64,000 nucleotides of DNA from positions 124,001 through 188,000 of the forward strand of contig NZ_JAKRWF010000004.1 in assembly GCF_022352215.1 (NCBI RefSeq), written 5' to 3'. Positions 5,412-13,897 of this stretch are shown here, in pieces. Below the pieces are notes generated by a model that ran no database searches, had not been told where the DNA came from, and saw nothing but the letters and a program-made list of their open reading frames with translations. Within the stretch, counting starts at the first letter, position 1, and each line of letters opens with the position of its first letter. The translations under genes were made by a program, and so were the position numbers. This DNA is from Flavihumibacter cheonanensis. GTDB lineage: Bacteria; Bacteroidota; Bacteroidia; Chitinophagales; Chitinophagaceae.

Positions 5412-5526
5412 GACGTGAGATGTGAAACGTATGGAACAGGAGACAAAGGATACTGGAGGCTGGAGTCTCCTTTGTGTCCTGTCTCCTTTGTCTCCCCTTT
5501 CTCACGTCTCACGTCTGACGTCTCAC
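5401..5526. repeat. Nested inverted repeat between convergent genes (GTGAGACG plus purine-rich words)
   Basis: The left arm is a tandem of 8-bp words (GTGAGACGTGAGACGTGAG from 5401); the right arm, 5501-5526, is its reverse complement with small changes. Inside them a second pair of arms is built from GGAGACAAAGGA (about 5439) and its complement TCTCCTTTGTCTCC (about 5483). The whole 126 bases can fold into one long hairpin. It overlaps the last codons of both flanking convergent genes and probably ends transcription from both sides. Confidence 0.8.
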
Positions 5527-7087: not shown

Positions 7088-7735
7088 ATGAAACAGATCA
7101 GCTTCTTTGCAGGACTTATTTTATTCTCAGTAATTGCAATGGCGCAGGCAAAATCCGTTCAGGGAATTGCCGAGTATCAAAAATCAAAACTGCCTGCTGC
7201 AGTTATTGAACTGCCTTATGCACCTTCTACAATTGAGGCGGCAGTAGATGAGCATTTCAGTAAAAAAGGACAAAAGCCGGCCAATGCTAAAGATTATAAA
7301 GTATTCAGGAATGTTGATTTGGGTGGTTCCGATCGCTACGATGCCTATCTGAAAGTGGAACGTAAGAGTCGAAAAGAAAAAGAAGCTGCTGTGGTTTATA
7401 TGGTGGTTACCAAACCGAATGAACTGATCACTGCCAAGTCGGGTTCCGATCAGGCGGGAGTAAGCGAAGCACGGCACTTTCTGGATAAGTTGGTGCCTGA
7501 TGTAGAAGAGTATCAGTTGAAGCTGGATATCGCGGCACAGGAAGAAGTAATTCGCAAAGCGGAAAAGAAATACACTTCCTTACTGAATGACTCCACTGAT
7601 CTTTCCAAGAAAAAATTGCAATTGGAAGAAAAGATCACTGAGAACAGTCAATCCCTCCAAAGCCAGCAGGCCGAATTGGAAAAGGAGCGCCAGGCACTGG
7701 AGGCGATAAGGCAGAGGAGGAAGGGGGAGAAGTAG
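7088..7735 (+). CDS. Exported coiled-coil protein of unknown function
   Basis: 215 residues with a signal peptide (MKQISFFAGLILFSVIAMAQ, cut probably after AMAQ). A small mixed alpha/beta region (about residues 25-140) contains repeated references to a YDAYLKVERK strand; from about residue 145 the protein is a long charged helix with heptad spacing (EEVIRKAEKKYTSLL, KKKLQLEEKITENSQ, EKERQALEAIRQRR), a likely coiled coil. I do not recognise a named family. It is probably periplasmic. The final RQRRKGEK is encoded at the start of a purine-rich repeat tract that continues downstream. It has its own promoter and no operon partner. Confidence 0.7.
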   Translation: MKQISFFAGLILFSVIAMAQAKSVQGIAEYQKSKLPAAVIELPYAPSTIEAAVDEHFSKKGQKPANAKDYKVFRNVDLGGSDRYDAYLKVERKSRKEKEAAVVYMVVTKPNELITAKSGSDQAGVSEARHFLDKLVPDVEEYQLKLDIAAQEEVIRKAEKKYTSLLNDSTDLSKKKLQLEEKITENSQSLQSQQAELEKERQALEAIRQRRKGEK

Positions 7736-7738
7736 TAT

Positions 7739-7826
7739 GGAAAAGGAGACAAAGGAGAAGGGAGAAAGGAAGATGGGGAATGGAAGATGGAGAAAAGGGA
7801 GAATGGATGAGGAAGGGAGGAAAGGG
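7739..7826. repeat. Purine-rich repeat tract (left arm of an inverted pair)
   Basis: Nearly pure A/G, made of the words GGAGACAAAGGAGAAGGGAG, GGAAGATGG and GGAATGGAAGATGG. The same words recur at 13841-13897 and 24497-24545, and in inverse orientation at 8236-8301. Confidence 0.7.
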
Positions 7827-8031
7827 TATAGGCGTAGCGGTTCTGGGACGTTGTTGGGTTATTGGTGGGTCAAATGAATGACCTAGGAATACGTAGGAAG
7901 ACGAAGGATGGCGTAGGATGAACAAAAAAAATTGATCTGAAGTGAAGGCTAACCTGGACGTTGTTTTGCTTTGCAACTCCCGCTGCTACAGCATTTGATG
8001 GCTGCAGGCTTCCATTTGGGAACCAAAAATA

Positions 8032-8156
8032 ATTGGCTCATGTTTAGCCCTGATTGGCTCAAAATACACAGAATTTGGCCCAAATACTGCATAATTGGCT
8101 CACAAGTACCTCTAATTGGCTCACAAATACTCTTATTTGGCTCATAAATTTATAGA
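8032..8156. repeat. Array of six 21-bp-spaced direct repeats, core (A/T)TTGGCTCA
   Basis: Copies start at 8032, 8053, 8074, 8094, 8115 and 8136, so spacings are 21, 21, 20, 21 and 21 bases. The core is ATTGGCTCA with ATTGGCTC or TTTGGC(T/C)C variants; the remainder of each unit is looser, often CACAAATACTC. Spacing of two helical turns puts every core on the same face of DNA, as in iteron or operator arrays. No protein partner can be named from the sequence. Confidence 0.75.
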
Positions 8157-8235: not shown

Positions 8236-8301
8236 GTGCCTCCTTTGTTTCCTCTTCCTTTCCTCCATCTTCCATTCCTCCCTTCTCCTCTGTCCCCTCC
8301 T
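8236..8301. repeat. Pyrimidine-rich repeat tract (right arm of the inverted pair)
   Basis: Its reverse complement reads GGGGACAGAGGAGAAGGGAG followed by GAATGGAAGATGGAGG, matching the tract at 7739-7826 with few changes. The two arms face each other across about 400 bases. Confidence 0.7.
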
Positions 8302-13840: not shown

Positions 13841-13897
13841 AAGGAAAAGGGGGGAATGGAAGATGGGGGAAGGGAAGATGGAGGAAGGAAGAGGGAT
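13841..13897. repeat. Purine-rich repeat tract
   Basis: A/G-only words GGGGAATGGAAGATGGGGG, GGGAAGATGGAGGAAGG, the same family as 7739-7826 and 24497-24545. It lies between the divergent reductase and TMEM220-like genes, and so is the one copy not at a gene 3' end. Confidence 0.65.

Follow-up and report, generated by a model that had tools for sequence, protein, structure and literature searches.

In the type II ParR/parC and the AspA/TubR centromeres of plasmids, a small DNA-binding protein is encoded next to phased direct repeats, which in R1 parC are 11 bp long. Iterons at plasmid origins, read by Rep proteins, are direct repeats of ∼21 bp that share a conserved core; they are accompanied by an AT-rich stretch, and their protein has a winged helix. 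REP/RAYT systems (REPtrons) and MITEs are short, dispersed intergenic repeats with one gene-bearing copy per genome, and multi-site transposon ends of the Tn7 or Mu type are asymmetric and hold several protein sites, which in Tn7 lie ∼21 to 22 bp apart. The locus described here, within a window of 64,000 nucleotides from Flavihumibacter cheonanensis (the whole stretch analyzed), belongs to an element that resembles each of these systems in the respects just named, and the fold of AspA is similar to that of the winged helix in the element's protein. Unlike the plasmid centromeres, however, the element is chromosomal, has several dispersed copies and two array types, and the N-terminal domain of its protein matches no solved structure; neither a partition ATPase nor an actin-like gene was noticed next to the protein's gene. 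Unlike iterons, its copies lie inside chromosomes between housekeeping genes and its protein has no Rep family match. Its repeats are direct, whereas those of REP/RAYT are palindromic; they form no hairpin, and its protein is not a Y1/HUH transposase. In contrast to Tn7- or Mu-type ends, there is neither a DDE transposase nor a defined end. Literature searches found nothing on this element.

The six-unit array reported in the preliminary description forms the right-hand half of a composite DNA element with two arrays and a fixed orientation, here present as a copy without a gene (Table 1). That description had given the six unit starts and a spacing of 21, 21, 20, 21, and 21 bp, all of which are exact; it had missed the left array, the second repeat type with its 10-bp phase, and the gene-bearing copy described below. 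Sequence reading identified five units of the right array as exact WTTGGCTCA and the third as the variant TTTGGCCCA, separated by spacers of 11 to 12 nt that are mutually unrelated. WTTGGCTCA was observed five times in the window versus 1.7 expected, with all five inside the right array, whose spacing is not due to chance. The array sits in an intergenic gap, previously put at ∼570 bases without a gene and measured here at 572 bp, between convergent genes whose stop codons end at 7735 and 8308. The left array lies upstream of the right array in a fixed orientation, and in most copies 60 to 150 bp separate the two; otherwise, a gene sits there. Copies at unrelated loci align across ∼330 bp, with 70% identity between the window copy and L055. 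A CRISPR array, which has repeats of ∼23 to 50 bp and unique spacers of similar length, was considered and rejected for a 9-bp core with such short spacers.

Table 1. Parts of the composite element, in window positions
Feature	Position	Strand	Description
GA-rich flank	7742..7830	+	pairs with 8240-8298 as an imperfect inverted repeat; part of the ∼530 bp that were gained
Left array, whole	7844-7918	+	three TGGG (11-bp period) followed by four CGWAGGA-type units (10-bp period)
Left array, outer block	7844..7869	+	TGGG at 7844, 7855, 7866; 11-bp period; common to other copies
Left array, inner block	7882..7918	+	CCTAGGA 7882, CGTAGGA 7892, CGAAGGA 7902, CGTAGGA 7912; 10-bp period
Interior, ∼113 bp, gene-free	7919..8031	+	AT-rich start (AACAAAAAAAATTGATCTG); common to other gene-less copies
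Right array	8032..8144	+	WTTGGCTCA at 8032, 8053, 8074 (TTTGGCCCA), 8094, 8115, 8136; 20-21-bp period; cores under purifying selection
CT-rich flank	8240..8298	+	inverted partner of 7742-7830

The GA-rich flank may be an unrelated dispersed repeat, and GA/CT-rich inverted flanks are also found alone elsewhere, away from the element. Tracts of this GGAGACAAAGGAGAC type occur in the window at 5465-5495 and 13841-13892 as well as in the two flanks; they are common in intergenic regions of G000 (the genome from which the window derives), G004, and G008, where several elements have them as inverted arms. A hairpin common to several elements, AAGTGGGTACCAGACCCCTGGTACCCACTT, lies directly 3' of the array in L059, L064, L119, L060, and L061 and is probably a terminator.

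Absence of phased arrays elsewhere and loss of the core in sister strains, named in the preliminary description as the signs of a neutral decaying repeat, were not what we found. Five further loci of G000 have phased arrays of the same core, and arrays of this core are present in sister species; G004 (Flavihumibacter fluminis) has eight TTGGCTCA loci. Genome-wide, the pattern TTGGCTCA-N10..14-TTGGCTCA matched 21 pairs at six loci in G000, while the reversed-pattern control matched none. The pattern also matched 10 of the 14 other Flavihumibacter genomes, with almost no match outside the genus, and in the multi-genome search the spacing was exactly 21 bp in 77 of the 94 listed pairs. Matches in G003 (one of these ten genomes, with a single pair that has no left array) and in G052 were judged to be chance. 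Arrays of CGWAGGA were confined to Flavihumibacter among the 59 genomes searched and, in G000, lie exclusively at the six TTGGCTCA loci; left and right arrays were always paired, and the composite element recurs at several places per genome in several Flavihumibacter genomes. A second, TC-type family, present in G000, G004, and G008, has the core ATCGGCTCA, a left period of 11 bp, and, at its outer left edge, inverted copies of the core (TGATTCAATTGATTCAATT or TGAGCCGATT); such inverted copies are a feature of TC-type elements only and were not seen in the window copy. One locus has the core ATCGGCTCA in G008 but ATTGAATCA in G000. When L123 was compared with L155/L156 (G004:C21, ∼515-526 kb), one end of ∼10 kb of extra DNA in G004 was seen to coincide with a TC-type element's left edge.

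Gene-less orthologous loci revealed how the repeats evolve. Differences between G000 and G004 affected 11/224 core versus 80/293 spacer positions (Fisher p = 3e-12), and those between G000 and G008 affected 18/176 versus 87/217 (p = 1e-11). The comparison of G004 with G008, neither of which defined the phase, gave 20/168 versus 62/215 (p = 5e-5). Between species, cores diverge 2- to 6-fold less than spacers, and we therefore conclude that selection maintains the cores. The earlier claim that the core is better conserved than the rest of the unit thus holds at orthologous loci, where cores are kept and spacers drift.

The locus itself is a gain. Seven relatives have the same two flanking genes without the array: in G014 and G002, where the joins were read, these genes are ∼80 bp apart in alignable terms and the element is absent, and five more species have no array between them. 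Because the element is absent from the same site in relatives, we conclude that ∼530 bp were gained in the lineage of G000, G004, and G008. No target-site duplication is readable at the empty sites of G014 and G002, which are too diverged to show one. As clean insertion pairs we rejected L061 of G004, whose G000 counterpart is a decayed element, and L065 of G004, whose G000 counterpart is unclear, both with no readable target-site duplication; L131 of G008 gave no clean empty site. The decayed counterpart of L061 (L116, G000:C110:1996000-2013000, ∼7700-7980) has lost its arrays and retains the last unit and part of the interior. Since an element intact in G004 has decayed in G000, single copies are dispensable.

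In one copy of G000 (G000:C186:438239-438814), the two arrays enclose a 192-aa gene, the left array being directly upstream of its start, and orthologous gene-bearing copies occupy the same relative position in G004, G008, G012, G013, and G014. The product fuses an unannotated N-terminal domain (N-domain) to a C-terminal winged helix. In an AlphaFold2 model (mean pLDDT 85), the N-domain is a beta-hairpin plus helices, and the predicted fold of the winged helix resembles MarR and the Fic2 C terminus in addition to AspA. Family searches returned weak DeoR/MarR-type winged-helix matches alone; the N-domain had no match in Pfam, NCBIfam, PHROGs, PADLOC, or PDB, nor in fold searches of PDB and viral models, and no relative of the N-domain-only protein was found in plasmids, phages, or viral contigs. 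We found no nuclease, recombinase, transposase, or HUH domain in the protein, no Y1_Tnp match in Pfam, NCBIfam, or PHROGs, and no match to a Rep initiator family. The encoded protein probably reads the element.

Across Bacteroidota, N-domain genes often adjoin 10- to 11-bp phased repeats. Upstream phased repeats were significant in seven of eight N-domain-only genes (∼97 aa; lag 11 in six, lag 22 in one), and fusion genes had an upstream lag of 10 or 11 in 8 of 14. Downstream, lag 21 was significant in 6/14 fusions and 0/24 other genes. Among 16 more distant N-domain proteins, of which some have an Ig-like C-terminal part, 10 showed lag 11 on the upstream or downstream side. Ig-like N-domain proteins of ∼188 aa are encoded at L239, L247, and L248 (G000) and at L226, L235, and L243; most of those listed have 11-bp phased repeats upstream or downstream. 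Arrays of 21 bp follow winged-helix fusions only, not N-domain-only genes, while 10- to 11-bp arrays flank both. By association, this distribution points to a pairing of the N-domain with the left array and of the winged helix with the right array.

Most 21-bp arrays beside fusions have their own core, and paralogous fusions adjoin other cores than the window's: ATTGAATCA at L091, ATGGGCTCA at L088, ATAGGCTCA/ATGGGCTCA at L081, ATGG[AC][AC]TCA at L095, and AT[TC]G[AC]CTCA at L096. Arrays of ATTGAATCA are restricted to G000 and G004, and these are the two genomes in which a paralogous reader has ATTGAATCA beside it; G008 keeps ATCGGCTCA arrays without a GAATCA-type paralogue. Of the 15 Flavihumibacter genomes, the 10 that have a fusion gene all contain arrays of one core or another, and the five that lack it contain none (exact p ∼0.0003 with phylogeny ignored, two of the five gene-less genomes being incomplete). 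At one fusion gene, L084 of G009, the flanking arrays are lost.

We consider it reasonably probable that the element is a maintained, dispersed docking site for the two-domain DNA-binding protein, either chromosome-organizing or transposon-derived. Among the three identities proposed in the preliminary description, "iteron-like" fits the anatomy, and both "chromosome-organizing site" and "mobile element" are still candidates. A polarity signal of the KOPS/Ter kind was rejected, as array orientation in the single-contig G012 does not follow GC skew, whose sign changes near 1.4 and 3.9 Mb; arrays on one contig lie on the same strand. The most serious competitor, although an unlikely one, is that the element is still a selfish, non-autonomous, MITE-like transposon; the arrays would be its asymmetric ends, to which the encoded protein binds as part of a transpososome-like complex. 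Such a transposon would account for dispersed gene-bearing and gene-less copies, for the gain at the window locus, for insertion sites that differ among distant species, and for the TC-type inverted cores, which resemble terminal inverted repeats. It fits poorly with a protein that matches no nuclease, recombinase, or HUH domain, with ends at which neither a target-site duplication nor a sharp boundary can be defined, with the absence of young, near-identical copies (as in the 70% identity to L055), and with purifying selection on cores at fixed loci.

The remaining readings carry less weight. Local regulation, with the arrays as ordinary operators from which the protein controls adjoining genes, seems improbable: the winged helix is of MarR/DeoR type and the left array's place before the gene's start makes autoregulation plausible, but the window array, like roughly half of the gene-less copies, is flanked by convergent genes and distant from promoters, and the neighbor genes have no common theme. 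It is very improbable that the repeats act as RNA, structured or as a protein-bound transcript. The fixed orientation of left and right arrays would suit a transcript; however, the single strand folds no better than shuffles (z +1.6) and has no hairpin, there is no Rfam match, and helical phasing is a feature of DNA. The preliminary description had preferred selection for protein binding over a plain slippage minisatellite, and this preference is supported. A neutral, decaying tandem repeat can be regarded as effectively excluded: orthologues do differ in unit number by whole 21-bp steps, but conservation of cores and not of spacers contradicts neutrality, the same core stands at unrelated loci and in other species, and the right array is always accompanied by the left.

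Returning to the docking site, we infer the following mode of action. The winged helix would read WTTGGCTCA, one site per two helical turns, and the N-terminal domain would read the one-turn-phased left array. Bound protomers would align cooperatively on one DNA face (10-11 bp being one turn and 21 bp two), the two-domain protein would bridge the left and right arrays, and several distant elements could be joined into one nucleoprotein complex. Because the copies are kept by selection, the likeliest present function is a host-level role, i.e., chromosome organization or titration/control of the protein. Transposon-like spread of the element is probable, and such an ancestry fits its dispersal.

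More tentatively, these elements may represent an undescribed class of Bacteroidota DNA-organizing systems. In such a system, an uncharacterized domain of ∼100 aa would assemble on repeats with one-turn phasing next to the gene that encodes it. In Flavihumibacter, this domain would have become joined to a winged helix that recognizes repeats with two-turn phasing, and the system would have spread as dispersed docking stations that are under selection and whose core sequence evolves together with its reader. Such a class would tie an unannotated, Bacteroidota-wide protein domain to DNA sites of great regularity, and it would offer a compact model for how a DNA-binding protein co-evolves with its operator and with dozens of sites in the genome. 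If the sites move, they would constitute a mobile element without a recognized transposase; if they organize the chromosome, they would represent a nucleoid system in a phylum with few known.
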